Shown one piece after another: positions 959 to 24,898 of a stretch of DNA of 24,898 nt (positions within the stretch are counted from its first letter, which is position 1; every line of letters begins with the position of its first letter). A program made the position numbers and the translations under genes. Location: IMG/VR virus record IMGVR_UViG_3300043568_002888, positions 1-24,898 of that record, one strand, 5' to 3'. The notes under the pieces are model-generated. The model was not told the DNA's origin. It made no database searches and saw only the letters and a list, made by a program, of their open reading frames with translations. Origin of the DNA: a virus.

Positions 959-1951
959 ATGAATATTTCAAATTACGCAAGGGGCTTAGAGCTATCAAAA
1001 TATAAAATTAATGAGTCTGCTATTTTAGAAGCTGATGCTGATCCAGCAAAAGCACTTGAGCAAATAAAAAGCGGAAAGGCTGGAGGCTCTTATGCAGCTC
1101 AATGGAAACAAGTACAAACTGCCGTTATTGCTGGTCATGAAGCTGACCAAACTACTGGAACGGTAATGGTTAAACACGATAATGGTTCAGACATGACTAA
1201 TGTTAATTGGAAAATTACAAACGGCAAAGTTGAACTTTCAGTAGCAGGTGCCGCTGGTACAGTAACAGGTCAAAATGTTAGTATTGAAAAGCTTGCAGCA
1301 TATGACCCAAAAGGTAAGATGAATGAAGTTGTTGCTGCTCTAATTACAATATCGATTGAAAAATTTGGAAAGACTTGGGACAAAGCTCATATGGATTGGG
1401 TTAATGCTCAAATCAATAAGTGTAAAGCACTAGGTGGATTTTATAGTAGACTGGCAGAATCAGCAACCGGTAAATTCCTAGTTGATACTGGTGACATTTT
1501 TACCACATGGATAAGTCCACTAAGTGGAGGCGATAAGCCAACTCAAATTGATGCAATTGGTGCAGCTAATAAAATTGCAGGATCTGCAGCAACTGACCCT
1601 CAAGTTAATATGATACTGCAGGCAATAAACATAAAGACTCAAGAATCACTAATCAGTATGACTGACGAAAGAGCAATTCATGGACTTTACATGTTAATTT
1701 CTCCAAAATACACAACTGGACAATTAGATAGAATGTATGCCGCAATTAGAGGAACCTCTGGTGGAGTATTGTCGGTAATGAAAGATAGTGGCGCAACCAA
1801 TGATATTTCTTTAATTGAGAAAAAAGCCTTTGCACAATGGTGTATTGGAGTTAGAGGAAATCAATACAGCACAGATATGCTTGCGACATACGGCTTTGAC
1901 TTAGCCTCATATACTGCTAGTTTAGCTGCGCTTAAATCTTCTTTAGTATAA
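959..1951 (+). CDS. Unknown 330-residue protein, likely virion or head-internal
   Basis: I do not recognise this family. The ATG at 959 follows the previous stop by 16 bases and has no Shine-Dalgarno sequence. The N-terminus (MNISNYARGLELSKYKINES) has I-N-E at residues 18-20 and I-L-E at 23-25. Both fit the [LI]-x-E rule of T4-type prohead protease sites, so the first ~20-25 residues may be removed during head maturation. The remainder mixes small residues with helical stretches; no enzyme motif, signal peptide or membrane segment is visible. Its position next to another Ala-rich protein and upstream of a tagged NUDIX gene suggests a late, virion-associated role, with moderate confidence. Confidence 0.75.
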   Translation: MNISNYARGLELSKYKINESAILEADADPAKALEQIKSGKAGGSYAAQWKQVQTAVIAGHEADQTTGTVMVKHDNGSDMTNVNWKITNGKVELSVAGAAGTVTGQNVSIEKLAAYDPKGKMNEVVAALITISIEKFGKTWDKAHMDWVNAQINKCKALGGFYSRLAESATGKFLVDTGDIFTTWISPLSGGDKPTQIDAIGAANKIAGSAATDPQVNMILQAINIKTQESLISMTDERAIHGLYMLISPKYTTGQLDRMYAAIRGTSGGVLSVMKDSGATNDISLIEKKAFAQWCIGVRGNQYSTDMLATYGFDLASYTASLAALKSSLV

Positions 1952-1953
1952 TA
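1945..1953 (+). promoter_or_regulatory. AGTATAATA promoter box for rpsU
   Basis: AGTATAATA overlaps the stop codon of the preceding gene. The TATAAT hexamer (1947-1952) ends 6 bases before the ATG at 1959, so the predicted +1 is the A of the start codon. The same box with the same spacing occurs at 3251, 7004 and 12651. No -35 element is evident. Confidence 0.55.
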
Positions 1954-1958
1954 AATCT

Positions 1959-2144
1959 ATGTTAATAGTAAACGTAAAAGACAATGGAACTTTAGACAGG
2001 GCTCTTAAAGTTTTAAAACGCAAATTTGAAAAAACCGGTACAGTAAAGCAGTTACGTTCCCGAAAGGAATTTATAAAACCAAGTATAAAACGTAGACAGG
2101 AGATTCGTAATGCACAGTACCGTCAATCTCTAAACAATGATTAA
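1959..2144 (+). CDS. rpsU: Ribosomal protein bS21, Bacteroidetes type
   Basis: This 61-residue basic protein has the full bS21 pattern: a short beta start (MLIVNVKDNGTLDRALKVLK), then RKFEKTGTVKQLRSRKEFIKPS, then a basic helix (KRRQEIRNAQYRQ). The wording matches Bacteroidetes bS21 more closely than E. coli bS21, supporting a Bacteroidetes host. bS21 binds the 30S platform near the 3' end of 16S rRNA. In Bacteroidetes, bS21 with bS6 and bS18 is known to sequester the anti-Shine-Dalgarno tail. A phage copy could replace the host protein and bias initiation toward phage mRNAs, almost none of which carry a Shine-Dalgarno. It overlaps the next gene by 8 bases and has its own promoter-like box ending at its ATG. 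Confidence 0.9.
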   Translation: MLIVNVKDNGTLDRALKVLKRKFEKTGTVKQLRSRKEFIKPSIKRRQEIRNAQYRQSLNND

Positions 2145-2604
2145 AACATTTTCTAATTTCTTGGCAGAAACAAAGAAATATTCAGATGGAGCCGGTGTAG
2201 CTATTCTTTATCAAAAAAAGATTCTACTAGTTCATCCAACTAATGGCAGTTGGACTAGACCAATTATGGGAATTCCAAAAGGCAAAATTGAAGAAGGCGA
2301 AGAACTTCTTGATGCTGCGCTTAGAGAACTTCTTGAAGAAACTGGAATTAGGCTCTCACCTGATAAATTAGAACCGGCTGTTGAAACTGTTCAAGTTTTC
2401 GATAAAGACGGCAACTATAAAAGCTCACTTCATTATTTTATTTGCAGAATTTCAGATCTTGCTGAAATTGGACTAGATGGATTGGCTATCCCAAAAAGTC
2501 AATTACAGCCAGAAGAAATCGACTGGGCTGGCTTTATTGATATTAAAGATGCCTATTCAAAAGTATCCAGAGCACAATTAATAATTTTAGATAGAATTTC
2601 CTAA
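2137..2604 (+). CDS. NUDIX hydrolase with capsid-targeting-like N-terminus
   Basis: The 155-residue protein carries a perfect Nudix box at residues ~49-71 (G-x5-E-x7-RELLEETGI), including the metal-binding RE..EE glutamates. NUDIX enzymes hydrolyse nucleoside diphosphates linked to another group, such as oxidised dNTPs, NADH, dinucleoside polyphosphates or RNA caps; the substrate here cannot be told. The start MIKTFSNFLAE|TKK, just before the Nudix fold, looks like the T4 internal-protein tag (T4 IPI starts MKTYQEFIAE) with L-A-E as a gp21-type cleavage site. That predicts packaging in the head, which is unusual for a NUDIX enzyme. The start is fixed by the tag; the ATG overlaps the rpsU 3' end by 8 bases. 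Confidence 0.92.
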   Translation: MIKTFSNFLAETKKYSDGAGVAILYQKKILLVHPTNGSWTRPIMGIPKGKIEEGEELLDAALRELLEETGIRLSPDKLEPAVETVQVFDKDGNYKSSLHYFICRISDLAEIGLDGLAIPKSQLQPEEIDWAGFIDIKDAYSKVSRAQLIILDRIS

Positions 2605-2655
2605 AACTCCTTCACTGTTTTTAGTAAAATAGCTAAACAACAAATTTTATATAAA

Positions 2656-3204: not shown

Positions 3205-3224
3205 TTTTTAACTTTTTATTTAAA

Positions 3225-3246
3225 AGCCGCGTCAGCGGCTTTTTTT
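3225..3246 (+). terminator. Rho-independent terminator
   Basis: The stem AGCCGC (3225-3230) / GCGGCT (3235-3240) has a GTCA loop and is followed by six T (3241-3246), with A residues before the stem. It separates the 2656 gene from the ligase transcription unit. Confidence 0.9.
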
Positions 3247-3250
3247 GTTT

Positions 3251-3259: not shown

Positions 3260-3264
3260 GCCAT

Positions 3265-5472: not shown

Positions 5473-6099
5473 ATGAAATACATCTCAATAGATATTGAGA
5501 CTACTGGTCTAAATCCAGAGTCTTGTCAAATTCTTCAAATTGGTGCAGTGATTGAAGACACTCAAAATCCCGTACCATACAATCAATTGCCTAAATTTCA
5601 GTGTATCATTGAACATGAAGCTTATGTTGGAAGTGCATTTGCTCTTTCCTTAAATTCATGGATCCTAAAAATCTTAGGAGGTCTTGAAAATAAAACCAAG
5701 GAAGAACGTTTGGAATACCGAAAGGCCCATAATATTTTACCTGCAGGCTTGGTTGCAAAATCTTTTCAAATGTGGTTAATCACAAATGGATTTCCATGTG
5801 AAGCAACTGGCGGCGTAAAGATTAATGTTGCTGGTAAAAACTTTGCAAGTTTTGATAAAGTATTTTTACAGAAACTTCCAAATTGGATGAGCTCAATTCA
5901 AATGAGGCAACGTATCCTGGACCCAGCGATTCTATTAATGGACTGGCAAGAGGATGAAAGTTTACCAAATTTACAGACGTGCATGGATCGATGCCAATTA
6001 TCTGGAGAAGTAACCCATGATGCTCTGCAAGATGCATTAGATGTAGTTAGAGTCATCCGAACTGTAACTAGTAATTATAACTTTGTTAATATTAATTAG
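5473..6099 (+). CDS. DnaQ-like DEDDh 3'-5' exonuclease
   Basis: The 208-residue protein has exonuclease motif I SIDIETTGL (Asp7, Glu9), a motif II region GKNFASFDKVFLQKLP around residue 130-146, and motif III HDALQDALDVV with the His and Asp of DEDDh enzymes. It probably removes 3' nucleotides from DNA or RNA in proofreading, repair or host nucleic acid degradation. Free-standing DnaQ-like exonucleases are common in large phages. It starts 10 bases after the SSB-like gene and closes the ligase operon. Between motifs I and II lies a ~40-residue insertion rich in Leu/Lys. Confidence 0.9.
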   Translation: MKYISIDIETTGLNPESCQILQIGAVIEDTQNPVPYNQLPKFQCIIEHEAYVGSAFALSLNSWILKILGGLENKTKEERLEYRKAHNILPAGLVAKSFQMWLITNGFPCEATGGVKINVAGKNFASFDKVFLQKLPNWMSSIQMRQRILDPAILLMDWQEDESLPNLQTCMDRCQLSGEVTHDALQDALDVVRVIRTVTSNYNFVNIN

Positions 6100-6103
6100 G
6101 CTG

Positions 6104-6113
6104 AAATAAATAA
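6104..6113 (+). promoter_or_regulatory. ATAAATA late-type promoter
   Basis: AAATAAATAA, with core ATAAATA at 6106-6112, lies 23 bases upstream of the ATG at 6136. It resembles the T4 late promoter (TATAAATA, -10 element only). It precedes a gene with a capsid-targeting-like N-terminus. Confidence 0.55.
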
Positions 6114-6135
6114 CATTATAAAAATATTACGTGTT

Positions 6136-6726
6136 ATGATTAAGACCTTTAAAACTTTTACAAATGAAGCACTTAGCCCAGCTATTTTAACTAGTTCAAT
6201 TAATGAGTGTACAGCTAATCAACTTAAGAGTATTTCTGAATTTAAAAGTACTTATAAAACTGAGTTAGATAAAGCAAATAAGATTGTTAACGTATACCAG
6301 GTAATTGATAAATTTAGTACCTGGCTAGTTGGTAAAACTCCAGCAATGGTCCAAGCTGCTCTATTAAATTCGCCAGGAACTGCTGATAAACTGGTAATTG
6401 AGGCATATACTTTCATTTATATGGAAATACAAAATCAATTAAAGTCAATTGGTACACTTAAAAAATCAGCACTTAAATTACTGGCTCCATCCGCTGCTGA
6501 CTTTGATTCGCAAAAAACTGACTCAGACTTAGTGAATCAAATTATACAATTAGTGGAATCGTTATTTGATGTAGGCTTTATGATTGGTTACAAATTTGAC
6601 AGTAAGTCAATTGAGGCAGATAATGCTTCAAACTGGTCAGTTTCTTTTACCAAATCTCTTAATTCTAGGAAATCTTTAATATTCAAAAATATTAAACTAT
6701 TAATTCGTAACTTTTTATATAACTAA
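6136..6726 (+). CDS. Tagged head-internal candidate, unknown function
   Basis: This 196-residue protein starts MIKTFKTFTNEALSPA, sharing MIKTF with two other genes in the window. The T-N-E|A at residues 9-12 sits where the other tagged proteins have [LI]-x-E, so the site is slightly off consensus; a second candidate, I-N-E, lies a few residues further in (SSINECT). The rest is mostly helical, Lys/Ser/Leu-rich, with no enzymatic motif I recognise. It has its own late-type box and follows an early exonuclease gene, marking a change in expression class. I infer a packaged internal protein. Confidence 0.75.
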   Translation: MIKTFKTFTNEALSPAILTSSINECTANQLKSISEFKSTYKTELDKANKIVNVYQVIDKFSTWLVGKTPAMVQAALLNSPGTADKLVIEAYTFIYMEIQNQLKSIGTLKKSALKLLAPSAADFDSQKTDSDLVNQIIQLVESLFDVGFMIGYKFDSKSIEADNASNWSVSFTKSLNSRKSLIFKNIKLLIRNFLYN

Positions 6727-6732
6727 TTGTCT

Positions 6733-7005
6733 ATGACAAAATTAAAAGAATGTTTATTATTATTTGCAATTCAGCTTGTACTGTATGGAATTTTATGCAT
6801 AAATTTTAGAGCAGTTGCTGAAACTCAATATCACTTAGCAGCAGTTAGTGATTTTACAATAGCTTCACTAAATTTTTTCGTAATCCGAAAAATTGCAAAG
6901 AGCGAAGATTCACTACACCAATGGTTTGGTTATGTTACTGGCTCAGTAGCCGGGTCCTATTTAGGAATTTGGTTATCGGTTCAACTAGCCAATACAATTT
7001 TGTAG
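6733..7005 (+). CDS. Small integral membrane protein
   Basis: I chose the ATG at 6733 over the in-frame TTG at 6727, giving 90 residues. Three hydrophobic segments are visible: ~6-26 (CLLLFAIQLVLYGILCI), ~35-53 and ~66-88 (YVTGSVAGSYLGIWLSVQLA), with charged RKIAKSEDS between the last two. There is no signal peptide cleavage site. Phages often carry such small membrane proteins for superinfection exclusion or lysis control; nothing here says which. It follows the tagged gene by 6 bases, and its stop TAG overlaps the promoter box of the next gene. Confidence 0.75.
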   Translation: MTKLKECLLLFAIQLVLYGILCINFRAVAETQYHLAAVSDFTIASLNFFVIRKIAKSEDSLHQWFGYVTGSVAGSYLGIWLSVQLANTIL

Positions 7006-7012
7006 TATAATA
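7004..7012 (+). promoter_or_regulatory. AGTATAATA promoter box for uvsE
   Basis: TATAAT at 7006-7011 ends 6 bases before the ATG at 7018, giving a predicted leaderless mRNA. The box overlaps the stop codon of the membrane protein gene. Confidence 0.6.
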
Positions 7013-7017
7013 ACTAC

Positions 7018-7992
7018 ATGAAAGATACTAACGTCCGTTTGGGTTATTGTTGCATTAACTTGTCTCTAGCCAACCAAAAAATTACAGCCAATCGAGGTAT
7101 GATCCGTAAAACCTTTCAAGAAAAGGGCGTTTCATATTGTGCTGAGCTTGCGCATCAAAATATAAAAGATGTTCTAAAAATTCTACAATGGAATTTAGCT
7201 AATGGCATTTACGTATATCGAATGTCAAGCGATATTTTTCCATGGATGTCAGAATACGAAATTCAAAGGCTGCCAAATTTTGCTGAAATTTTATCAGACA
7301 TGCAAGAAATTGGCAAGTTTGCAGTTGCAAATAATATCAGGGTATCAATGCACCCAGGCCAGTTTGATGTTTTACCTTCTCCTAGAGCCGATGTTATTGC
7401 AAAAACAGTAAAGGATCTAGATCAGCACTGCGAAATTATGGATCTTATGAAGTTACCAACTAATGTAGGTTTTCCAATTAATATTCATATTGGCGGTACA
7501 TATGGCGATAAAATTGCAGCAGCTAAACGCTTTTGCGAGAATTTCCAACTACTTAAACCGAATACCAAAGCCAGGTTAGTTGTAGAAAATGACGATAAGG
7601 CTACTCAATATTCAGTAGTAGATCTTTATCAACTCGTATACCTTGAAATAGGTACTCCTATTACTTTTGATTTTCATCATCACCGGTTTAATACTAGCGA
7701 TCTTACTGAAGAGGCTGCTCTTAAGTTAGCTGCTACCACTTGGCACGGTCATACCCCGCTTACTCATTATTCAAGTAGTAAAAAAACCTTTGAGGATCCT
7801 GGTGTAATTGCTAGATCTCATGCTGATTACATTTATGAGCAAATAAATAATTATGGTCAAGCAATAGATATTGAAATTGAGGCAAAGGCCAAAGACTTAG
7901 CTGTACTTAAGTATCGCGAAGGTTTTAATTCTTTGCTTGAAAACTATTTAGAGTTTGACGATAAGAGACTATTTGAAAAAATTGAAGCATAA
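7018..7992 (+). CDS. uvsE: UV-damage endonuclease UvsE/UVDE
   Basis: The 324-residue TIM-barrel enzyme shows the UVDE signatures in order: RLGYCCIN near the start, YRMSSDIFPW (~63-72), SMHPGQF (~112-118), NIHIGGTYGDK, LVVENDDK, DFHHHRFN and a C-terminal DIEIEAKAKD. The His, Glu and Asp residues bind the metal cluster. The enzyme nicks DNA 5' of pyrimidine dimers, (6-4) photoproducts and abasic sites, starting excision repair without nucleotide excision repair enzymes. It is of normal length. With the Fpg-like glycosylase and ligase it gives the phage a light-damage repair set, consistent with sunlit water. It overlaps the next gene by one base (TAATG). Confidence 0.95.
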   Translation: MKDTNVRLGYCCINLSLANQKITANRGMIRKTFQEKGVSYCAELAHQNIKDVLKILQWNLANGIYVYRMSSDIFPWMSEYEIQRLPNFAEILSDMQEIGKFAVANNIRVSMHPGQFDVLPSPRADVIAKTVKDLDQHCEIMDLMKLPTNVGFPINIHIGGTYGDKIAAAKRFCENFQLLKPNTKARLVVENDDKATQYSVVDLYQLVYLEIGTPITFDFHHHRFNTSDLTEEAALKLAATTWHGHTPLTHYSSSKKTFEDPGVIARSHADYIYEQINNYGQAIDIEIEAKAKDLAVLKYREGFNSLLENYLEFDDKRLFEKIEA

Positions 7993-8553: not shown

Positions 8554-8777
8554 GAGACTGTTTATCCCTAATTGATACTACCCTAACCAAAGATGGAATT
8601 ATGCATCAAATAAAAGACATCAGCGTTAGCTGCTTAAATCATACCTACCTTACCGTTGAGTGCAGTCAAACCTGCTGCAGAATTAATTATAAATTCACAG
8701 ATTTTCAGGCCTTCTTAAACGACAATGGATTCTCATTAAGAGAATCCATTGCTAAAGAATATCAATTTAAAGATTAA
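8550..8777 (+). CDS. Small hypothetical protein
   Basis: This 75-residue protein is coupled to the membrane gene through an ATGA overlap. It has a strand-rich middle with four cysteines (SVSCLNHTYLTVECSQTCCRINYKF), which could bind metal, and a short helical C-terminus. No family is recognised. An 11-bp perfect inverted repeat lies inside its 3' end. Its TAA (8775-8777) interleaves with the stop codon of the convergent gene on the other strand. Confidence 0.65.
   Translation: MRDCLSLIDTTLTKDGIMHQIKDISVSCLNHTYLTVECSQTCCRINYKFTDFQAFLNDNGFSLRESIAKEYQFKD
8724..8750. repeat. Perfect 11-bp inverted repeat near convergent gene ends
   Basis: AATGGATTCTC (8724-8734) and GAGAATCCATT (8740-8750) pair perfectly around an ATTAA loop. 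It lies within the 3' coding end of the 8550 gene, about 25 bases from the overlapping convergent stop codons. It may act as a factor-independent pause or mRNA 3' end for either strand, though no T-run follows. Confidence 0.6.
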
Positions 8778-9880
8778 ATTCCGTATACTGCAGAAATTGC
8801 TGCATAGTTTACTGGGCCAAGCTGAGCAACTGAACCCATTGCCGTACTTTCATCATTATAACCGTATACCTTAAATCCGTAAACTCTGGTAGTTGTTGCA
8901 TGGGTTGGAGAACCACCTTCACATAAATTAATTCTACCAATTGTTGCATTTGCTAGAGGGCCTGTGCCAGATAAAACATATCCAGAAGGTCCAGCACTAT
9001 CAAGTTGTGTACCATTTATAAAAACCGTAATTGCAGTGGTAGTGCCGGTTCCAGTTGGAATATACGCAGCAATATGAAATATACCGGTACTAGTAAGGGC
9101 AGATATTCCAGTCCAAGACCAAGTAAAAGAACCTGATTTTATCTCAAGGTTTCCAGCACCATTAACAATAACGGTAATATCGTCAGTACCATCACCAATT
9201 AGGAAATTCCCAGCAACTGAACCGTCTTGATAGAATACACCTTCTACTACTAAACTTTGGTCAAATGTATCGCCACTAGCATCTTTAAGTGGGTTTACTG
9301 TTAATTTACCGCCGGCCAGTGATCTAAAATAACCTACAAAACTTCCAGCTGCTGGGGCAGTAAATGCACCACCTGCGGCAGTAAAACGATTATTGCTTAA
9401 ACTTCCAGAAACTAGATCATAAACTTGTGTACCTGTTCCTGGGTAACTTGCTAAGAAACCTAATTCAATATTTACTGCACATTCAGCATCTAGTAAATAT
9501 TCAGGATATTTAGTATTCACTAGCATATAGGTGGTAGTACTAAGTAGCCAATCAATTGCCTCATCATAACTTGCAAATATCTCATAGTTATTTGGGGCTC
9601 TTTCAGGCAAACGACTAATTAATTCAATAATATTTGCTTGAGATTGACCACTAATCCAATGAATTGATGGTATTGCGGCTGCTGGAGTATCAACACCGCG
9701 GCTGTTTGTGTCTGTATAAATTACAGTGTTAGTTGATGGGTTAATACCTGCTCGCCAGTTATTATCGAGTAGAGTAGTATAGTCCTTATTAATGGTCCCT
9801 AACGAAACTGTGCCGAAATTAACGGCATCCCTAGTTGGTTTATTAAGTCCATTGTAACATACTGGATTGATTGTTGGCAT
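8774..9880 (-). CDS. LamG-like (concanavalin-fold) virion surface protein
   Basis: The 368-residue protein has an N-terminal region of ~150 residues, including a helix AIDWLLSTTTYMLVN, then a linker SYPGTGTQVYDL, then a beta-rich C-terminal domain. That domain is typical of LamG/concanavalin-like folds: VVEGVFYQDGSVAGNFLIG, IFHIAAYIPTG, TAITVFINGTQLDS and TRVYGFKVYGYND near the end. Such domains in phages are tail-fibre or head-decoration adhesins that bind glycans. It is a paralogue of the 22196-23176 gene: the helix, linker and C-terminal module occur in the same order. It is transcribed alone from a late-type box and ends in a 3-base overlap with the convergent gene. Confidence 0.8.
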   Translation of the reverse strand: MPTINPVCYNGLNKPTRDAVNFGTVSLGTINKDYTTLLDNNWRAGINPSTNTVIYTDTNSRGVDTPAAAIPSIHWISGQSQANIIELISRLPERAPNNYEIFASYDEAIDWLLSTTTYMLVNTKYPEYLLDAECAVNIELGFLASYPGTGTQVYDLVSGSLSNNRFTAAGGAFTAPAAGSFVGYFRSLAGGKLTVNPLKDASGDTFDQSLVVEGVFYQDGSVAGNFLIGDGTDDITVIVNGAGNLEIKSGSFTWSWTGISALTSTGIFHIAAYIPTGTGTTTAITVFINGTQLDSAGPSGYVLSGTGPLANATIGRINLCEGGSPTHATTTRVYGFKVYGYNDESTAMGSVAQLGPVNYAAISAVYGI

Positions 9881-11242: not shown

Positions 11243-11809
11243 TTATCGAGTAGTTTTACGAGGGTTTAAAGATTGGGGCTTTTTACCAGTTTCCAGATTA
11301 GTATCTTTTTTAGAACCATTTAACACTCCATTGTCTGGAATATTATTGGTCTTTGCAAATACCTTTTTCTTATCCATAGACTCTTCAGTTTTCTGTGCAG
11401 ATTTTAAAGCGCCTGGAGCTGGATAACCTTTTTCTCCTGGCTTTGCAGGTTTTTCTCCACGCTTTCTTTTTGCATTAATATTATCCCATAAACCTTTTTT
11501 CTTTTCGGAAATGTCTAGACTTGCTAATAGTGCGTCAGACTCATCTGCAAAACTTTGAGCAATATCTTCTCCAAATTCATCATAAATTTTTGTGATAAGA
11601 TCATTTTGTAAATCTTTAATTCTGGTTGCAGTTTCATACTTATTTGAGTGTTGATCGATTTCAACTGGCTCATTTGTATAGTTGCTTGCTAATTCAATTA
11701 GATCTTTTGAAATATTATGGTAAAAAGAATCCGATTTTGTATTTGGCGCTTGGTGGAATTCATCGTAACTCTCTTCAAAGCTTTCAAATAGTGCAATGTA
11801 ATTTTTCAT
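11243..11809 (-). CDS. Tagged head-internal candidate with basic C-terminus
   Basis: The 188-residue protein starts MKNYIALFESFEESYDEF; L-F-E|S or F-E-E|S could be prohead-protease sites. The middle is acidic and helical (DLQNDLITKIYDEFGEDIAQSF). The last ~90 residues are Lys/Arg/Pro-rich and hold KKGLWDNINAKRKRGEKPAKPG, a motif I recognise as recurrent in phage proteins of unknown function. The basic end could bind DNA in the capsid. It is driven by a late-type box 26 bases upstream, which abuts the start of the divergent glycosylase gene. Internal-protein role is inferred. Confidence 0.75.
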   Translation of the reverse strand: MKNYIALFESFEESYDEFHQAPNTKSDSFYHNISKDLIELASNYTNEPVEIDQHSNKYETATRIKDLQNDLITKIYDEFGEDIAQSFADESDALLASLDISEKKKGLWDNINAKRKRGEKPAKPGEKGYPAPGALKSAQKTEESMDKKKVFAKTNNIPDNGVLNGSKKDTNLETGKKPQSLNPRKTTR

Positions 11810-14831: not shown

Positions 14832-15034
14832 AAAAAGTATTAAGAATTGAACCATATTGTTATAAAACATGGTCACCTGCATTTAAGCAAATTGGCTTAA
14901 TTTCCCCGTATATTACCTATAATCCAGAAGGTCACTTTGTTGAATCTGGAGTTAGCTCTTGGCTATTAATAGTAAGTTTTAATATACTAATTTGGGATTT
15001 TGGATTCAGGATCTATTATGATCTTGAATATTAA
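14828..15034 (+). CDS. Small membrane-associated protein
   Basis: The 68-residue product has one hydrophobic segment near its C-terminus (SSWLLIVSFNILIWDFGF, ~43-60) and a polar aromatic N-terminal part. It is coupled to the GNAT gene through ATGA. Its TAA interleaves with the stop of the convergent gene on the minus strand. Function unknown. Confidence 0.6.
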   Translation: MKKVLRIEPYCYKTWSPAFKQIGLISPYITYNPEGHFVESGVSSWLLIVSFNILIWDFGFRIYYDLEY

Positions 15035-16365
15035 GCAGTCTGAGTTGAGGTTAATGAATTAGCAAAAGCTTTTGCTTTTTGTAAACCGACTGAAACAACT
15101 GCTCCATCTAATGAAGTCCCCCAACCTGCGTTAGACCTAATATAGTCAGTAACTGCTGAATCTAAATCTGAATAGTTATTTGGATTTTTACCATGTCTCT
15201 TAAATGAATCAATAAAATATAGGATTGCAAATTCTGCTGCAATCTCAGGTTTTTCAAGAAGTTCAGGATTTTTAACAATATCAATACTACCTAAAGACTG
15301 GTTTGACTTATTATAAATCTTTTGTAGGTTTTCGTAATTTCCTTTAAATGTTATTCCATTAAAACCGCGGCCTCTGTATTTTTCTCCATCTCCTGGTTCA
15401 GTATTGCCGTACATTCCTCCATATACTGCTTCCCAAAATTTACTGTCAAAGCCAGTTTTGCCTAATTGTTTCCAACCTTCAATTTCTTGATCTGAATATT
15501 TTGAAATTCTGGCTCCAAATACTTCTTTCATTCTTGCAATTGATGTACTAAAATACGAAGTTTCACTACCACCTTTTGAAGACTCTTTTGAAATTACTCC
15601 TAAAATTGCTTTACGTGCAAATTCATTTGTTATTCCATTTTTGTCCATTGACTTTTCTAATGCAACCATATTTTCTTTTGGAAAGCCGCCTCCAGATTTA
15701 AAGTTAGTACCTTTACCTGCAGTCAATGAAGTTGAATATTTGTCTAATTCTGCTTGAGAAAAATTCTTTTCTTTTAATTTAGCAATAAGCCTCTTAATTA
15801 AGTCCGAGTCAATTACAATACCGCTGCTAGATAAATTACCAGCAGGTGCTTCCGCTCCGGTTAAGCCACTAACTGTAATTGGATCATCGACTTTGGCATT
15901 TGCTGTTTTTGAATTTTCTGCACTTTTGCCATATGATAAATGAAAGTGACCGCCAGTAGCAGCCGCAGTTGGATTAGAGTATTCATCAATATAACTAAAG
16001 CCTGGAGTTCCAGCTGAAATTCTGTCTAATATAGTAATCATTTGTTTACGAGCTTCTCCAGAATTTGGAGTTATGGCTAAGTCAATTGCTTGGCCTTTAG
16101 TATGTCGACTCACATATGATAAATTATGGTGAAATGCATCATTGCCTCCAGTAACTGTAACTTTAACAGTTGGTGCAAGTTTTTTAAATTCTTCAAGAAC
16201 TACTTTTGTAATCTTTTGAATATCATCAGTAATATCTCCACCGCTGCTAATCTCAGAAGATTTTTCAGAATATCCTAGCTCAGCTAAGGTATCTCTAAGC
16301 TCGTCAGATTGAGAGGCTTCATTAAGCGCACGTTTAAAGTCAGTATATGATTTGATTTTGGTCAT
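15031..16365 (-). CDS. Two-domain peptidoglycan hydrolase (M15 peptidase + GH19-like)
   Basis: The 444-residue protein has a tagged N-terminus (MTKIKSYTDFKRALNE|AS). An M15-type zinc peptidase domain follows, with SRHTKGQAIDL (~86-96) and GHFHLSYG (~139-146), giving His88, Asp95 and His142 as metal ligands. After a linker comes a lysozyme/GH19-like domain: AILGVISKESSKG with a likely catalytic Glu261, and YGNTEPGDGEKYRGRG (~319-334). Together they would cut the peptide stems and the glycan strands of the wall. The upstream gene supplies a peptidoglycan-binding domain and is coupled by TAATG. It could be an endolysin, but the tag suggests a virion-associated enzyme. Confidence 0.88.
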   Translation of the reverse strand: MTKIKSYTDFKRALNEASQSDELRDTLAELGYSEKSSEISSGGDITDDIQKITKVVLEEFKKLAPTVKVTVTGGNDAFHHNLSYVSRHTKGQAIDLAITPNSGEARKQMITILDRISAGTPGFSYIDEYSNPTAAATGGHFHLSYGKSAENSKTANAKVDDPITVSGLTGAEAPAGNLSSSGIVIDSDLIKRLIAKLKEKNFSQAELDKYSTSLTAGKGTNFKSGGGFPKENMVALEKSMDKNGITNEFARKAILGVISKESSKGGSETSYFSTSIARMKEVFGARISKYSDQEIEGWKQLGKTGFDSKFWEAVYGGMYGNTEPGDGEKYRGRGFNGITFKGNYENLQKIYNKSNQSLGSIDIVKNPELLEKPEIAAEFAILYFIDSFKRHGKNPNNYSDLDSAVTDYIRSNAGWGTSLDGAVVSVGLQKAKAFANSLTSTQTA

Positions 16366-16730
16366 TATATTCCCTGATCTTTTTTAGTAGCTTCATTAAA
16401 CTTCTTGATTGCATCAGCTGTTTCTGGTCCAAAATAGCCATCTACTCCAAATTTTGGAAGTGAATAACCTAGGAACATTAAGGCAGTTTGAATATTTTCA
16501 ATCATCTTTGAATATTGCATTTCTCCTGTTTTTTGAACGGGTACTGACTTATTTTCTCTTGCAAAATCTTCAAGTGTTTTATAAAATTCAGAAAGTTTAT
16601 CGTCAATTAGCTCCTGATTGTCAGTATTACCCTGTTTCTTAGCTGTGCCCTCTTCGCTCTTTCCGGTTAACCAGTCTAAAAAACGGCCTTCGTTAAGGTT
16701 TGAATTAAATTCAGTAAAGGTTTTAATCAT
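16365..16730 (-). CDS. Tagged peptidoglycan-binding protein
   Basis: The 121-residue protein starts MIKTFTEFNSNLNE|GRF, a clear capsid-targeting-like tag. The C-terminal ~45 residues form a PG_binding_1 domain (IENIQTALMFLGYSLPKFGVDGYFGPETADAIKKFNEA, given here in part: VDGYFGPETADAIKKF). It would anchor to the cell wall and help the hydrolase encoded downstream, to which it is joined by the TAATG overlap. Two late-type boxes lie upstream on the same strand. Confidence 0.85.
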   Translation of the reverse strand: MIKTFTEFNSNLNEGRFLDWLTGKSEEGTAKKQGNTDNQELIDDKLSEFYKTLEDFARENKSVPVQKTGEMQYSKMIENIQTALMFLGYSLPKFGVDGYFGPETADAIKKFNEATKKDQGI

Positions 16731-16779: not shown

Positions 16780-17532
16780 ATGCCTGAATCAATTAAAAGA
16801 GTTGTGCTGAATGGATTTAGATACTATCAAGTATCTGATTCAACTGGAATACTGGGAACTTTCCCAAGTGTAACGTCTGTACTTGGAGATACCTCTGATA
16901 AATCTGGACTTGATGCTTGGAGAAACCGAATCGGTCACCAAAAAGCCGATCAAATCGGACAAGATGCAGCCAACCGTGGAACTGTAATGCACAGGTTATG
17001 CGAAATCTATCTTAATTTGCCACAGTCAATGTCTGCCAAGGACAGACTCGAGGACACTTTGTCCTTGGCCAGAATAGACGATGAGATTGATCAATTTGAT
17101 AATCGAGCAAAAATTGTAGGTGGCATGCTCTTCTATAATTTTATAAAATCAAAGTCGTTTGATGAAATTAAACGGGTAATTGCCCAAGAGCGATTCTTAT
17201 GGACTGCTAGGGATGGTGGATTTGCTGGTACCGTTGATAATGTTTCTGAATTAATAACTGGTGACCATGCAATTGTAGATTTTAAGACAGCTCGTAAACC
17301 AAAGGAAGAAAAATGGATTGAAGACTATAAAAATCAAGTTGCAGCATATTCAGTTGCAGTTTGGGATCGCATGCAGGTTAAAACTGTTACTTGCAGAATT
17401 TGGATTTCAAATGAAGTAAATTTAGCTCCACAGCACTTTAGAATGGACTCTAGCGAAATGCGAGAATACTATTTTAAATTCAGAGAAAGACTAGCCGACT
17501 TCTATAAGAAGAATCCACCAATTGTACTTTAG
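16780..17532 (+). CDS. RecB-like PD-(D/E)XK nuclease
   Basis: The 250-residue protein has the PD-(D/E)XK nuclease pattern of RecB/Cas4-like enzymes: NRGTVMHRLCE (His71, Glu75), then GGFAGTVDNV (Asp153), the core DFKTARK (Asp167, Lys169) and the trailing QVAAY (Gln186, Tyr190). It probably degrades DNA as an exonuclease or processes recombination and packaging intermediates. It is a single gene between two divergent/convergent late genes. No obvious early-type box precedes it; the ATG follows a late box that reads the other way. Its stop interleaves with the convergent gene's stop. Confidence 0.88.
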   Translation: MPESIKRVVLNGFRYYQVSDSTGILGTFPSVTSVLGDTSDKSGLDAWRNRIGHQKADQIGQDAANRGTVMHRLCEIYLNLPQSMSAKDRLEDTLSLARIDDEIDQFDNRAKIVGGMLFYNFIKSKSFDEIKRVIAQERFLWTARDGGFAGTVDNVSELITGDHAIVDFKTARKPKEEKWIEDYKNQVAAYSVAVWDRMQVKTVTCRIWISNEVNLAPQHFRMDSSEMREYYFKFRERLADFYKKNPPIVL

Positions 17533-19493
17533 ACAATCTCAGTTCGGTCAGTGATCTTTCTTAAAAGATCTAATCTAACTGGAGTAGGTCTTTCAGCTCC
17601 ACCAAATGTTCTTAAGTAAATAAATGGCTGATTTGCAGTATTTCTGGTTGTATAATCACATTTAGATAAAATACCCCAATTGTTTTGGTGATTTGCAATA
17701 TAGTAGTGATCTCCGGCTCTGGCCATTAATTTATCCTGTTCAGTAACAGGTTCAAGGCTTAGGGCAACTAACCCCATTCCAACAAATGGACCTTCAACTG
17801 TTTTACCAGTAACTACATTAATTAGCATAATATTACGAGGATTGCTAATTAATTCTTGCGGGCTTTCAACTGACCTTGTTGCTCTACCTATTTTTTCAAC
17901 TGCTACAAATACTGGAACTCCAGCGGCTCCTCTAAGGGTTGCTTGTTGAGGTTCTGCTAGAACTACAAATTTTGCAAAATTACCAGTTCTGATTTTCTTA
18001 AGCAGGTCAAGATTATCTAAAGTTTGGCGATTATTAACAGCCTGTTTTAATTCAGTTCCAGTAAAATCAAGTTTACCAAATAAGGCTTTGTCTGCAGTTC
18101 TGGCCAAGTTTTGAGAACGATCTCTTTCAATACGTTCTCTTTCTGCTTGAGCTTCAGCATCTCGGCGTTGTTGAATTACTTCAGGGCGTAATCTATTGCT
18201 AATAAAGGTTTTGCCAGCTGGGGTTAAGTTAACCCTATCTAAGTCAGGAATACTTTCAATATTTACTTTAACCCAAATTGATTTATCATTTGTTGTTCGG
18301 GTATCGCCTGCATCGCCTGGAGTAAGTTCACCTTGCTCAATTCTGATAGCATCATTAATACCTACCGCAATATAAGTTCCGTTACGTACATCAACCACTT
18401 GTCTAATTGGTAAGCTACCGTAGCTTGCATCATACAGGTAGCTTTTAACTACAATAAAGTCGCCAACTTGCCATTCTGCATCTGGCTCTGCACCAAATTG
18501 TGTAATACGAGTAGCAAGACGTTGCCTAGTTTCAGCCTCTTCACGAGTTCTACGCTCTCTATCTGCAATTGCTTGGCGTTCTGCTCTTTCTCTGTCAAGA
18601 CGTTGAACTTCTGATCTAGCTGCATTAATTGAGGTTAATTTCTCAGTTGGTATACGGCCGTCTCGGCCTAATGAAGTTAAATAATCATCATCTAATTTTG
18701 TTAAAAATGTATCAGGTAAAAGTCCAAGAAGTTCATCATCAATATCAAATCTGTCCGGTTTTGTGTTATTAAAACCAATTTGACGTTCAATAAATCTTTC
18801 AGCTACATCAATTTTTGATTGAGTGCTTATACTTTTATCCATTGCCATCCAACTACCTGGACCAATTATTGCTAGCGCATCATCAACTGACGGTGTTCCA
18901 TCTGGGTTTGCTTTATAGTCTAACAATGACCCCCAAGCTTTGTCCTTTTCGGTAGTTCCACTTGAATTTGATGAAATATAACCTGCATATTTTAATAGTG
19001 TTCGGTACAATTTGTAACCTAATCCTGTACCCCTAAGCGCTGGTCTAATTCCATCATTTGGGAAATGGCTGCGTTGAAATGAGCTAGGCTCTTCAGTTCT
19101 AAGATAAACTGACGTACCGGATGGATACACATCTCTCCATTTACCAAAATCCTCTTTCATTCGCCCTTCATCAAGTTGCTTAATTTCCTTGAGTAAATCA
19201 ACAATAGGTTGTGGAAATTTTGGATAATAGTCTCTGGTATTACTGGGCTTTTCCATTGTAATCTCAAGTCTAGAAACCTGTTTTAGTGCACGAGTTAAAT
19301 CAGCAGCAACTTCTGTATAACTTCTGCGAACTGGCTGATTTGCCATACGCTCTCTACGAGTAACTGTTTCTTGTCTAGCTCTACCGATATGACTTCCAGC
19401 TAATCGTTCAGGGCGTTTAACTCCCATTTCATCAACTAGTCCACCCTGATTAATATTTGATTCATTAATTGCTTCTATAAAAGACTTTGCCAT
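17529..19493 (-). CDS. Large tagged virion protein with possible GNAT domain
   Basis: The 654-residue protein starts MAKSFIEAINE|SNI, with I-N-E at the predicted cleavage site. Residues ~75-210 include IRPALRGTGLGYKLYRTLLKYAGYISS, resembling the acetyl-CoA loop (RGTGLG) of GNAT-type acetyltransferases. Two Arg/Glu-rich helical stretches (~285-325 and ~430-455) separate beta-rich, SH3-like parts (WQVGDFIVVKSYLYD). The protein is single-gene, from a late-type box 25 bases upstream. By analogy with T4 Alt, which is packaged and injected, it could be an injected modifying enzyme; the GNAT call is by eye only, and it could be a structural protein. Confidence 0.7.
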   Translation of the reverse strand: MAKSFIEAINESNINQGGLVDEMGVKRPERLAGSHIGRARQETVTRRERMANQPVRRSYTEVAADLTRALKQVSRLEITMEKPSNTRDYYPKFPQPIVDLLKEIKQLDEGRMKEDFGKWRDVYPSGTSVYLRTEEPSSFQRSHFPNDGIRPALRGTGLGYKLYRTLLKYAGYISSNSSGTTEKDKAWGSLLDYKANPDGTPSVDDALAIIGPGSWMAMDKSISTQSKIDVAERFIERQIGFNNTKPDRFDIDDELLGLLPDTFLTKLDDDYLTSLGRDGRIPTEKLTSINAARSEVQRLDRERAERQAIADRERRTREEAETRQRLATRITQFGAEPDAEWQVGDFIVVKSYLYDASYGSLPIRQVVDVRNGTYIAVGINDAIRIEQGELTPGDAGDTRTTNDKSIWVKVNIESIPDLDRVNLTPAGKTFISNRLRPEVIQQRRDAEAQAERERIERDRSQNLARTADKALFGKLDFTGTELKQAVNNRQTLDNLDLLKKIRTGNFAKFVVLAEPQQATLRGAAGVPVFVAVEKIGRATRSVESPQELISNPRNIMLINVVTGKTVEGPFVGMGLVALSLEPVTEQDKLMARAGDHYYIANHQNNWGILSKCDYTTRNTANQPFIYLRTFGGAERPTPVRLDLLRKITDRTEIV

Positions 19494-20299: not shown

Positions 20300-20356
20300 T
20301 GGTAATATAATATGCAATTGAAAGTATCTAAGCTTTTGTGGTATATTATATTAAGT

Positions 20357-21364
20357 ATGAGATCAAAGAAAATAAAAACTTTTTATACTCCAAAGCAGGT
20401 TTTAGAAAATGACAAGACTTCTAATTATAGTAAGTCTCCACTAAAACCCAAGTTGCTTTTGGAATATTTAAAACAGAAAAAACTTCTTGGCAATTTTTCA
20501 ATAACTGATGATTTTAAACCATTTACTAAAACTGATTTTAGAATGGCTCATCATAAAAGTTATGTGGAAGATTTTTTTAATGGGACTGGGTTATGTAGTT
20601 CAAATTCATTAGCGTGGTCAAAGCAATTTGCTGAATCAATTAGATATACAAATTCATCTCTGTATTCAGCAATCCGAAATTCAATAGTTAATCCAAAGCA
20701 AGTTAGTTTCAGTCCAACTAGTGGGTTTCACCACGCCCGACCATCAGGCGGCAGCGGATTTTGTACATTTAGCGGTCAAGTAATTGCATCACTTAAAATC
20801 TATAATGAATTTGGATTAAGCGGAGCCTATTTAGATTTAGATGGGCATTTTGGAAATTCAATTGAGGATAGCCGAGGTTTCTGTAAAAACTTAAATAAAG
20901 CAGTTCCATTAGATTTTAATATTAATCCAGAAGGATATGACTCTGACTATTTAGCAGATCTTGCAAAATGGTTAGAAAGATTAAAATATGCTATCCTAAC
21001 CGATAAAATTCAATATGTAGTTTGGTGTCATGGCGCAGATTCGCACGCTGATGATAGCTTAGGAAGACAATGCGATACTGACCATTGGCTTGCATGTTCA
21101 ACTCTTTTTTGGAAATGGGTAAAAAAGATGGATGGGTTATTAGGAAGGCCATTACCTGTAGCATGCGCACTATTTGGAGGATACCGGGATGACGATTATA
21201 ATTCAGTCTTAAGTTTACACACCAGTGACTTTGTTGAGTGTTTCAAGGAATTGCTTGAGGTCGACGTTAAATATACTATAGAGGTAAGTCCTCGTCAAAA
21301 AATTGGATATTGTGATGGTACGAGACTACGTAGAAAACGAAGAACTATGGATCAAAAAGTATAA
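20357..21364 (+). CDS. Histone-deacetylase-fold (arginase/deacetylase) hydrolase
   Basis: I chose the ATG at 20357 because MRSKKIKTFYTP is a natural start for this fold and a TATATTATA box precedes it; an earlier ATG at 20312 would add 15 residues. The 335-residue protein carries the zinc-hydrolase motifs of class I/II HDACs and bacterial acetyl-amidohydrolases: GFHHARPSGGSGFC with the His pair (125-126), DLDGHFG (Asp160, Asp162, His164), HGADSHADDSLG with Asp228, and GGYR. These residues bind zinc and activate water to remove acetyl groups from lysines, polyamines or similar amides. The substrate is unknown. Confidence 0.85.
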   Translation: MRSKKIKTFYTPKQVLENDKTSNYSKSPLKPKLLLEYLKQKKLLGNFSITDDFKPFTKTDFRMAHHKSYVEDFFNGTGLCSSNSLAWSKQFAESIRYTNSSLYSAIRNSIVNPKQVSFSPTSGFHHARPSGGSGFCTFSGQVIASLKIYNEFGLSGAYLDLDGHFGNSIEDSRGFCKNLNKAVPLDFNINPEGYDSDYLADLAKWLERLKYAILTDKIQYVVWCHGADSHADDSLGRQCDTDHWLACSTLFWKWVKKMDGLLGRPLPVACALFGGYRDDDYNSVLSLHTSDFVECFKELLEVDVKYTIEVSPRQKIGYCDGTRLRRKRRTMDQKV

Positions 21365-22195: not shown

Positions 22196-23176
22196 TTATA
22201 GCCCAATAAATCTTGATGCATATGCATTATAATTTTGAGTCATTTCATCAACTGAAAGAATTCTATTATATGCTAATAAAAAACCAAATTCACCAGTACT
22301 AGCTTCATTTCCAACACCATAACCACTAACTGCAAATCCATTAGGCCCAGCAGAACCCCCACCATTAGGACCAGAGCTTAATGAATTATTAACATATAAA
22401 GAATAACTATCTCCCGCAATATTCCCAATTGCTGAATATATTCGCCAAGTTGTATCATTAGGTCCACTGTAAACACTTGATACCCAACCTTCAGCGTAGT
22501 AATTTGTAGTAGTAGTTGCCCAATTCCCCATCAACCAATTAGAACTAGTTAGAGCGAGTGGGGAATTAATCATTCTTTGATGATTTGGAGACGACGGGTT
22601 ATAAACTCCGACATATCGAGAAGCACCCATTACTGTATAATTTGTGGCACTTAAATTTGGGGTAGCACTATAAAGCCAATCATCTACGCCATCAAATGTT
22701 AATACTCCTCCATTGGATGCACTATAACCAACTCCATTAACTAAAGTTCCATTATTACCATTTCCTGATATATCATAAATTGTAGTACCTTTACCTGGAT
22801 AAGATGGAATAAACCCCGCATCCCAACACGTAACTAATCCACTGGTTATGATTGGTGGATAATCAATATTAACAGCCATCTTATCTGCTTGAGTGTTATA
22901 CCAATCTAATGCCGCATCGAGTCTTGTAAAACTTTGTGAACCAATTTGATTGGTCAAAGATATTAGAGCTTCGGCATTAGCAGCAACGTATATAGTAGGT
23001 CCTCCACTTGCTTTATTAAGATAAATTGTGTAGCCACCAACCGGAGGAGTAATCCCGTTCCAGTAATCAGTTGTGGCAGTTGGACCCTTTTCCACATCGC
23101 CAGTGCCAATCCAGTAATTGCCGTCTTTTAGGGCTAGTGTTTGGGCGGCAACGTTATATTTTATTGAATTTGGCAT
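22196..23176 (-). CDS. LamG-like virion surface protein, paralogue of the 8774 gene
   Basis: I start at the ATG at 23176 (MPNSIKYNVAAQTL), which lies 4 bases after the previous stop, instead of the overlapping longer frame beginning at 23218. The 326-residue protein has an N-terminal part with helix RLDAALDWYNTQADKMAVN, the linker SYPGKGTTIYDISGNGNNG, and a C-terminal LamG/concanavalin-like domain (VLTFDGVDDWLY, YSLYVNNSLSSG, FGFLLAYNRILSVDEMTQNY). The helix-linker-LamG order matches the 8774-9880 gene. It is a likely glycan-binding surface or fibre component, co-transcribed with the metalloprotease gene. Confidence 0.8.
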   Translation of the reverse strand: MPNSIKYNVAAQTLALKDGNYWIGTGDVEKGPTATTDYWNGITPPVGGYTIYLNKASGGPTIYVAANAEALISLTNQIGSQSFTRLDAALDWYNTQADKMAVNIDYPPIITSGLVTCWDAGFIPSYPGKGTTIYDISGNGNNGTLVNGVGYSASNGGVLTFDGVDDWLYSATPNLSATNYTVMGASRYVGVYNPSSPNHQRMINSPLALTSSNWLMGNWATTTTNYYAEGWVSSVYSGPNDTTWRIYSAIGNIAGDSYSLYVNNSLSSGPNGGGSAGPNGFAVSGYGVGNEASTGEFGFLLAYNRILSVDEMTQNYNAYASRFIGL

Positions 23177-23180
23177 TTGA

Positions 23181-23990
23181 TTATAGATTATTGATATAGT
23201 TATTAAGAGATAATTCAAGTTGCTCGGTTCCAGTTAAAGTAGATGAAGGTTCACCATAATATAATTCATAGCGATCTTCTAAAAGATCAGCTGCATCCAC
23301 TTCATTTTTTAGGTTAAGTAATCTAATACCAAACCAATCAGCTTCCATTTCTTGACGTTCATCATATTGATTTGCTCTATCGTATTTAGAGGCCGAGTGC
23401 TCTAATTCAAAATGTGCAATTTCATGAGCTTCAATTGCAAGTATGTGATCACTTGTTAAGTTTTGACTCTCAATTATTACTCCATCAATATAGATAGTTT
23501 TTAAGGAAAGATCTGCAAATGCAATTCCTAAATAGTTAAAAATCTTTGCAAAATCTTTATATAGGGAATCCTCTGGCCAAAGGGCAATAACTGTCCAGTC
23601 TAGATCAAGTTTACTTTTCCAAGCAGTAGGTTCTGCTGATTCTGACAAATTATAACGCTTCATTTTTGAAGCGCGTTGACCAGTTAGGTCTCTCCATAAC
23701 TCACGTACATCAGGTTGAGCTAAAGTATCCGCCTGTACCATTGAATAAAATTGATTATCTGAGTTCTGCATCATTGCGAACCATTCTTCTAGTGTTGGTT
23801 TCTTAGGTAGTGCGGCTATTCTAGTCTTTAACCGACGGAACATTGGAAACAACTCTGTTTCATATTTGTCACCGGTATGAGGGTTTCTGCCGAATTTACG
23901 ATTAATACCAAGATCGCTTAATTGCTTAAGAGGTCTTGGATGCTCAATATTTTCAGATACCCATGTATTAAAGTTTACAATCGTTGCCAT
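23181..23990 (-). CDS. Tagged HExxH zinc metalloprotease
   Basis: The 269-residue protein has the zinc-protease motif AIEAHEIAHFELEH (HEIAH at ~189-193) and a downstream glutamate in ERQEMEADWFGIRLL (~211-225), the E-x-x-x-D pattern of M48/ImmA-IrrE (M78) type gluzincins. A preceding strand TIYIDGVIIES (~165-175) is the usual edge strand. It starts MATIVNFNTWVSE|NIE, fitting the tag pattern loosely, with V-S-E as the site. If packaged, it could be injected and cleave a host protein; it might also act in virion maturation. It opens a late operon from a box only 7 bases upstream. Confidence 0.8.
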   Translation of the reverse strand: MATIVNFNTWVSENIEHPRPLKQLSDLGINRKFGRNPHTGDKYETELFPMFRRLKTRIAALPKKPTLEEWFAMMQNSDNQFYSMVQADTLAQPDVRELWRDLTGQRASKMKRYNLSESAEPTAWKSKLDLDWTVIALWPEDSLYKDFAKIFNYLGIAFADLSLKTIYIDGVIIESQNLTSDHILAIEAHEIAHFELEHSASKYDRANQYDERQEMEADWFGIRLLNLKNEVDAADLLEDRYELYYGEPSSTLTGTEQLELSLNNYINNL

Positions 23991-23997
23991 TCTATTT

Positions 23998-24022
23998 TAT
24001 TTATCCCTAGCGTAGATAAATA
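23998..24022. promoter_or_regulatory. Divergent late-type promoter pair
   Basis: TATTTATC (23998-24005) and GATAAATA (24015-24022) form an inverted pair 9 bases apart in the 50-base gap between two tagged genes. The left one reads minus, ending 7 bases before the ATG at 23990. The right one reads plus, ending 18 bases before the ATG at 24041. Confidence 0.6.
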
Positions 24023-24040
24023 ATAAGAAAATCAATAGTA

Positions 24041-24484
24041 ATGATTCATAAATATCAACAATGGATTGAAGAATCTGAAAAAGTTGAAGCAAACGAGCAA
24101 GTGCCAACCGCTACTCCAGAAGTAACGGCAGCAACTGATGCAACCGCTTTACCGGTTACAACTGAAACACCAGCCGCAACTACTCCAGAAATTCCATCTG
24201 AACCAGAAATCGTATCAGCTGAGTCTGAAATTGAAGAATACCAAACTTTAGATAAAGCTCGTAGAGAAGCAATTAAAGCATTTAAAGAAAAACAAGGCGA
24301 ATTCTTGGAAATTCCAGAAGACATTCGTAAAAACCCAGTTGAAGAAGCTGATAAAACAAAAGTTGAAGAATTAAAAACTGCTCTAATTGAACTTAATAAA
24401 ACAATGAAAGCTGCAATTACTGCTTGGAATAAATTTAATTCAATGGCTCTTGGTATTGAAGATGACGAAGACATTGAACCATAA
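24041..24484 (+). CDS. Tagged head-internal candidate, Pro/Glu-rich
   Basis: The 147-residue protein starts MIHKYQQWIEE|SEK, with I-E-E as predicted cleavage site. Residues ~19-70 are a Pro/Thr/Ala/Glu-rich disordered stretch. The remainder is helical and charged (KARREAIKAFKEKQG, ELKTALIELNKTMKAAI), ending in an acidic tip EDDEDIEP. No enzyme motif. It lies 2 bases upstream of another tagged gene. It resembles a scaffold or small internal protein; role inferred. Confidence 0.78.
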   Translation: MIHKYQQWIEESEKVEANEQVPTATPEVTAATDATALPVTTETPAATTPEIPSEPEIVSAESEIEEYQTLDKARREAIKAFKEKQGEFLEIPEDIRKNPVEEADKTKVEELKTALIELNKTMKAAITAWNKFNSMALGIEDDEDIEP

Positions 24485-24486
24485 GA

Positions 24487-24898
24487 ATGCAGTACCTACT
24501 AGAATATAGCGATTGGACAACCCAACGGGAACAAGAACTCAATGAAGATTGGGGATGGGATGATTTGGTGCATCTTGGCGTTGATGTGGTTAGCGCAGTG
24601 GCTGATACGGTAGTTCCAGGATCAGGCAGTGTTATTGACATAATTCATGCAATTTCCTATTCAATTCAATCAAGTTTTGCAAGTACTGAAGCTGAAAAAG
24701 TTTCTTTAAATATGCAAGGTTTAATAACCCTAGCGTCAGTTGCTGCAATTAGTGGAGCTCAAGCACTTGCAGTTGCGCTAAAGGCCCAAATTAAAATAGT
24801 AATGGCTGCATTTACTGAGGGTCTATCTAATCCAACTGCTTTTAAATTAGCAAAAGCTGCTGCTCCGGAAGTTTCATCTAAACTTAAAACTTTGCTTG
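24487..24898 (+). CDS. Tagged virion-type protein, 3' end outside window
   Basis: The ATG at 24487 follows the previous stop by 2 bases, and the frame stays open to the window end (137 residues seen). The N-terminus MQYLLEYSDWTTQREQELNE is rich in Glu; L-L-E or L-N-E may be protease sites. It is followed by a long small-residue, partly hydrophobic stretch (VDVVSAVADTVVPGSGSVID, then IHAISYSIQ) and another Ala-rich helix (LASVAAISGAQALAVAL). Such glycine/alanine-rich hydrophobic regions occur in membrane-inserting or pre-toxin domains, but I cannot assign one. The rest of the protein is unseen. Confidence 0.7.
   Translation, partial: MQYLLEYSDWTTQREQELNEDWGWDDLVHLGVDVVSAVADTVVPGSGSVIDIIHAISYSIQSSFASTEAEKVSLNMQGLITLASVAAISGAQALAVALKAQIKIVMAAFTEGLSNPTAFKLAKAAAPEVSSKLKTLL

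Follow-up and report, generated by a model that had tools for sequence, protein, structure and literature searches.

In phage T4 the internal proteins IPI, IPII and IPIII carry a capsid targeting sequence, a short and modular N-terminal peptide (Mullaney and Black 1996, reviewed in PMC9026906). In IPIII (MKTYQEFIAE) targeting depends mainly on residues 4 and 7, and processing on residues 8 and 10 (PMC9026906). Targeting sequences are known in the T-even phages, and related phages carry at least ten internal proteins (PMC12373910); no report of tags of this kind outside the T-even group was found in the open-access literature. In phiKZ and SPN3US many head proteins are cut after a glutamate and many proteins are ejected (PMC5694885, PMC9026906). 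Here we analyzed a 24.9-kb virus fragment (IMG/VR IMGVR_UViG_3300043568_002888, positions 1-24,898; hereafter the window), several of whose proteins start with a short segment resembling the T4 peptide (hereafter the tag). These segments are very probably T4-type capsid targeting sequences belonging to a greatly expanded head-cargo system. What appears to be new is its scale, its extension to enzymes and into the largest phages, and the correspondence between the tag and tandem repeats in a protease-scaffold fusion.

Relatives were recruited by searches with the NUDIX and peptidoglycan-binding proteins of the window. They include G012 (271 kb, plus three sister contigs equal in size), G005 (128 kb, with DNA 90-96% identical to the window across most shared stretches), G019 (176 kb) and further genomes; 400 kb were read of each of the phages LR756501 (735 kb) and LR756500 (462 kb). 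Genes were called by a simple script, so individual starts may be off. The hosts of the window's group are presumed to be Bacteroidetes.

The original prediction held that about ten genes of the window share the tag, and all ten named starts were present with the quoted N-termini. Written as a regular expression, the predicted motif matched 12 of the 36 window proteins, where shuffled or internal segments would give 2-3. A position matrix was then trained on the 261 G012 genes without a window homologue, with the share of tagged genes bounded; it replaced a fit with this share unbounded, which had drifted to a vague motif. Ten of the 36 N-termini reached at least 6 bits (1.0-1.5 expected from the shuffled and internal backgrounds) and five at least 8 bits (0.1-0.4 expected). 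The ten at 6 bits or more overlapped only partially with the ten listed genes. Some listed genes fell below 6 bits because their cut site is displaced; DNA ligase (3265) scored through a stretch inside its N-terminal domain, a chance match within the fold, and a few others are also read as chance. Thymidylate synthase, with 7.7 bits in a looser matrix, was likewise read as chance, and a sigma-factor-like family in the loose tag set was rejected as an in-fold match.

The conserved positions of the tag were [FY]xx[FYW][LIV]xE. Counts were made with a strict pattern, [FYWH]xx[FYWH][LIVM]xE, and with a long form in which the aromatic pair comes first and the cut site a few residues later. The window contained three strict tags (0.1-0.2 expected) and three long ones (0.1 expected). 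Besides DNA ligase, the cytoplasmic enzymes of the window recognised by Pfam (guanylate kinase, DUF3127, exonuclease, UvdE, Fpg glycosylase, thymidylate synthase, PD-(D/E)XK nuclease and a deacetylase-like protein) had neither form. Strict N-terminal tags were found in 21 of 292 proteins in G012 (1.8 expected), 13 of 167 in G005 (0.7), 11 of 208 in G019 (0.8), 14 of 201 in G035 (1.3), 12 of 173 in G033 and 12 of 165 in G034 (expected within 0.7-1.8), 29 of 505 in LR756501 (2.4) and 23 of 521 in LR756500 (3.5), which amounts to about 4-8% of the genes that were read per long genome. Ninety strict matches started within residues 1-10 and further on about 2 per 5-residue bin, and the reversed pattern was not enriched in most genomes. 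Against shuffled and internal controls the motif was strongly N-terminal in the complete-size relatives. This check and the search for a protease were run on relatives, as 24.9 kb is all that is available of the window's own genome. The proposal that the cargo is much richer than that of T4 was borne out in the number of tagged genes: T4 has three strict matches (one unproven) plus IPI, compared to 11-29 strict cases per long genome here. Tags were few (3-8) in T4, two cyanophages and one Vibrio jumbo phage, and Salmonella SD-6_S16 showed no enrichment.

Comparison with the dissection of IPIII (PMC9026906) revealed that the four conserved positions of the tag are the targeting and processing positions of the T4 peptide, with aromatics at 4 and 7, [LIV] at 8, Glu at 10 and Ala after the cut. 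Two features outside the strict pattern point the same way: the residue after Glu was A, S, G or N in 94 of 133 tags compared to 25.6% after internal [LIVM]xE (p=2e-27), and Asn before Glu was enriched 7.6-fold. The aromatics were F/Y at P7 and F/W/Y at P4, where F was enriched 17-fold, a value that the pattern partly imposes. Tags were 9-20 residues long, at the extreme N-terminus, with a predicted [LIV]xE cut motif. T4 IPI shares the long layout, an aromatic pair and a later [LIV]xE, and mature IPI in PDB 2jub begins at residue 20. Since the Phe codons within tags match genome usage, the constraint acts on the protein. A gp21-type protease, here encoded by relatives of the window, and a putative T4-like late promoter would extend the likeness. 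The systems differ in that enzymes here bear tags, protease and repeat scaffold form a single fusion, and the phages are distant from the T-evens and reach 735 kb. The predicted cut after Glu is shared with the head proteins of phiKZ and SPN3US, whereas some of their propeptides (several) are longer than 100 residues and phiKZ uses S/A-x-E as its motif, so that the tags did not conform to phiKZ-type head propeptides. In T4 itself (NC_000866), gene 61.1 (18966-19130), annotated as hypothetical, encodes a protein beginning MKTFKEFIKED, a near-perfect targeting sequence; gp61.1 may be an internal protein that has been missed, although its Glu is followed by Asp.

A gp21-like protease gene, proposed at the outset as something to look for, was present in the relatives: Peptidase_S77 (PF03420) scored above the cut-off in 14 of 45, and most of these have it next to a gp23-type capsid gene; in G012-type genomes the score was 38.4 bits against a cut-off of 27. 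Within the window's group, protease, gp23-type capsid and NUDIX genes share one molecule in G012 and also in a contig of 254 kb, which was binned with a Bacteroidetes metagenome genome and encodes a NUDIX protein 85% identical to that of the window. The protease forms the front of a fusion of 556-807 aa, the middle of which consists of tandem repeats of exactly 14 residues with the consensus I-x-Y-S-E-Y-L-A-E-N; 70 of the 78 fusions examined had at least three 14-residue spacings between units. These repeats carry the same four positions as the tags. In T4, on the other hand, gp21 and the scaffold gp22 are separate proteins and gp22 lacks 14-aa repeats. The fusion was predicted to form one long helix across the repeats at low confidence, and because pLDDT was about 40 the prediction carries no argument. 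The capsid protein of the G012 group has a conserved [ILV]NE followed by [SA] in its N-terminal region, a putative site that would fit the same protease. Freshwater Bacteroidetes phages encoding bS21 (PMC9723584) are also large and show late expression, and next to their capsid gene lies one for 'prohead core scaffolding and protease'; the passages of that paper considered here mention neither repeats nor N-terminal tags. The proteases of PTm1, Lak and the short G039 type had no repeats, and strict tags were not enriched in those genomes (4 of 298 proteins in PTm1 with 2.1 expected, 1 of 238 in Lak, 0 of 259 in G039). No repeat scaffold was found in the protease of MA9V-2, where tags were not counted; MA9V-2, PTm1, Lak and Salmonella SD-6_S16 are cultured phages that were considered as models for experiments.

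The tag matches the head-loading tag of T4, and therefore these viruses probably bring a large ready-made protein set into their hosts. In the mechanism proposed, tagged proteins would be made late from T4-like late promoters, and their aromatic pair, [FY]xx[FYW], would bring them into the prohead core; the gp21-type protease would cut both scaffold units and tags after [LIV]xE, the scaffold pieces would leave, and the mature cargo, retained in the full head, would pass into the next host along with the DNA, by precedent of the T4 anti-restriction internal proteins (PMC12373910). Since the protease-fused repeats show the tag's four positions, the tag may function like one scaffold unit on its own. 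We put forward tentatively the wider proposal that the tag is a detached unit of each phage's own repeat scaffold and a general loading code in phages of up to 735 kb, whereby any gene that acquired some 11 residues at the N-terminus, together with a late promoter, could become head cargo and heads could deliver dozens of proteins.

Several observations weigh against these readings. The strict pattern was fixed only after the scaffold repeats had been seen. The available fragment of the window's genome lacks head genes, so the protease and scaffold of its phage are inferred from relatives; packaging, cutting and injection, like scaffold binding, are inferred from what the sequences show (tag, enrichment, modularity, protease, repeats and late-type motif). 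Two listed genes, 11243(-) and 959, fit the tag poorly. In G033-G035 and in the two largest phages the late-type motif, in the form tested, showed no enrichment ahead of tags. The association of tag enrichment with the repeat scaffold is suggestive, made without correction for phylogeny and with exceptions among repeat-scaffold fragments, where strict tags were few or none (0 of 65 proteins in G027, 2 of 95 in G030); LR756500 has few recognisable repeats (4) yet many tags. Finally, the second aromatic is F/W in tags and Y/H in repeats, so that the pattern is common to both and the exact consensus is not, and a matrix built from the repeats alone separated tags only modestly. For this last reason the description of the tag as an 'identical copy' of a repeat was rejected in favor of 'same four positions'.

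The consistent difference in the second aromatic also agrees with the suggestion that the tag does not bind the scaffold and that the four shared positions reflect recognition of both by the protease, as does the use of a targeting sequence by T4, whose gp22 has no such repeats. This suggestion, which concerns only the mimicry of the scaffold, is quite possible, if somewhat short of probable: residues 4 and 7 of the T4 peptide affect targeting and not processing, and tag enrichment was largest in genomes with the repeat scaffold.

Recognisable domains on tagged proteins were NUDIX, peptidoglycan amidase, peptidoglycan-binding, phage lysozyme and VWA-linked metallopeptidase, together with ATP-grasp, methyltransferase-like and leucine-rich-repeat proteins; most tagged proteins matched no known function. 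As to the cargo first proposed for the window, the NUDIX hydrolase, wall hydrolase and metalloprotease were recognised, and the supposed acetyltransferase, 17529(-), had no Pfam or PHROG match. The tagged proteins might instead serve in the head core or in assembly, being packaged or degraded as the head matures and not injected. T4 core proteins gp67, gp68 and gp22 are indeed cut up and removed (PMC9026906, PMC9958956), and in G012 a tagged gene adjoins gp23. We consider this unlikely, since NUDIX, amidase, lysozyme, metallopeptidase and methyltransferase-like proteins would make improbable scaffolds and the T4 internal proteins are injected anti-restriction factors (PMC12373910). Six tagged proteins of LR756500 (L224-L240) form one cluster; leucine-rich repeats occur in at least one of them, and they could represent delivered effectors.

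The sequence upstream of tagged genes was also informative. When 8-mers ahead of the tagged genes of G012 and G005 were compared without prior assumption, ATAAATAA was the most enriched (19 of 34 compared to 61 of 426, p=1e-7), lying 13-43 bases before the start, and its enrichment was repeated in G019 (7 of 11 tagged genes compared to 39 of 198, p=0.003). The element resembles the T4 late promoter TATAAATA; the exact TATAAATA was not itself enriched upstream of tagged genes. In G012 it also precedes the protease-scaffold gene, the tagged small gene adjoining gp23 and several long genes interpreted as encoding tail or fibre proteins. In the window a late-type element, identified by sequence, lies before 6 of the 10 listed genes compared to 2 of 25 others (p=0.003), and 15031(-) and 24487 directly follow genes that have one. 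These results bear on the view that the segment is only a protease site or a leader with a non-head role, such as localisation to a membrane or replication site or stability, and resembles the T4 peptide by coincidence. The placing of tagged proteins in virions is a prediction from sequence and most of them lack a known function, which leaves some room for this view; it is nevertheless distinctly improbable, given that the four conserved positions are those dissected experimentally in T4, that a tagged small gene directly adjoins gp23, that the late-type element matches that of head genes and that no enrichment was seen in G039, PTm1 and Lak, whose protease lacks a repeat scaffold.

In favor of targeting sequences, the tag behaved as a module. 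When clustered by mature sequence, 166 tagged proteins (a loose set that includes some false positives) formed 121 clusters, 93 of them singletons. The NUDIX enzyme is tagged in the window's group and in several more distant phages, with differing tags, and its homologues in other phages begin directly at the domain. In the wall hydrolase 15031(-) the C-terminal 285 aa are 85.5% identical to G005 and the N-terminal catalytic part is replaced; the versions of the window, G005 and G012 each start with a different valid tag. The loci with swapped N-terminal parts are window 15031-16365(-), L132:12151-13536:- and L123:2695-3948:-, the swapped parts being peptidase-like forms or an amidase and the C-terminal part common. 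A tract of about 1.2 kb (window 6050-7250) is 96-100% identical to G012 (99.6% at 6136) between flanks of about 75%, and the 6136 gene is missing from G005, so that this tagged gene and its promoter have been exchanged recently. Tagged genes were not more variable between genomes than other genes. The idea that tags are left over from gene duplications, or merely reflect the composition of short N-termini, can draw on a few paralogous tagged genes such as the six-member cluster of the 462-kb phage, and is largely refuted and scarcely credible in view of the singletons, the shuffled, internal and mostly unenriched reversed controls and the survival of tags through domain swaps.

If the tags are targeting sequences, head cargo could be read from the genome sequence of uncultured giant phages, most of whose genes have no known function, and a protein set would be predicted that acts first in infection, before phage gene expression; in T4 such proteins are anti-restriction factors. 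With the repeat scaffold comes a concrete hypothesis for core targeting by a 10-residue peptide, a point that the reviews considered here leave open for T4, and natural loading peptides beyond T4 are suggested for head-delivery uses.

Judged from their sequences, seven of the ten listed genes are well supported, 17529(-) is a probable case, and 11243(-) and 959 are weak candidates (Table 1). The tag of 6136 has one conservative deviation, T for LIV. That of 17529(-) is degenerate, with A instead of the second aromatic, and its G012 homologue begins MINSLRDIVNE followed by S. The tag of 24041 is kept in the G012 homologue, and the long tag of 24487, apparently in the operon of 24041, is kept in an 84% identical G005 homologue. 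The wall hydrolase 15031(-) combines a peptidase-like N-terminal part with a lysozyme/chitinase-like C-terminal part. Gene 959 had neither a strict nor a long tag and no late motif of its own.

Table 1. Listed genes of the window and late-promoter-like elements upstream of them
Feature	Positions	Strand	Details
NUDIX hydrolase	2137..2604	+	strict tag MIKTFSNFLAE, then T (2137-2169); PF00293 3e-14
196-aa protein, no assigned function	6136..6726	+	tag MIKTFKTFTNE, then A (6136-6168); matrix 12.1 bits
188-aa protein, weak tag candidate MKNYIALFESFEES	11243..11809	-	6.1 bits, no in-register [LIV]xE
Wall hydrolase	15031..16365	-	long tag MTKIKSYTDFKRALNE, then A (16318-16365); phrog_181 endolysin 3e-19
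Peptidoglycan-binding protein	16365..16730	-	long tag MIKTFTEFNSNLNE, then G (16689-16730); PF01471 4.5e-07
654-aa protein, no assigned function	17529..19493	-	degenerate tag MAKSFIEAINE, then S (19461-19493); 4.8 bits
Metalloprotease-like protein (HEIAH)	23181..23990	-	strict tag MATIVNFNTWVSE, then N (23952-23990); phrog_87 2.7e-07
147-aa protein	24041..24484	+	strict tag MIHKYQQWIEE, then S (24041-24073); 13.0 bits
Protein cut by the window end	24487..24898	+	long tag MQYLLEYSDWTTQREQELNE, then D (24487-24546)
330-aa protein, weak candidate only	959..1951	+	ILE then A at residue 24; 4.1 bits
Late-promoter-like ATAAATAA	6106..6113	+	before 6136
Late-promoter-like ATAAATAA	11835..11842	-	before 11243(-)
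Late-promoter-like ATAAATAA	16770..16777	-	before the two wall-hydrolase genes, 16365(-) and 15031(-)
Late-promoter-like ATAAATAA	19518..19525	-	before 17529(-)
Late-promoter-like ATAAATAA	23997..24004	-	before 23181(-)
Late-promoter-like ATAAATAA	24016..24023	+	before 24041

Other genes of the window include an untagged phage-encoded histone-deacetylase-like protein (20312-21364; PF00850, 1e-16) and a thymidylate synthase of 436 aa (13170-14480), longer than usual, whose family match falls in two stretches, so that an insertion is possible. Two fibre-like proteins, 8774-9880(-) and 22196-23218(-), are alike in style; the former has a late-type element and the latter sits in a stretch absent from G005.

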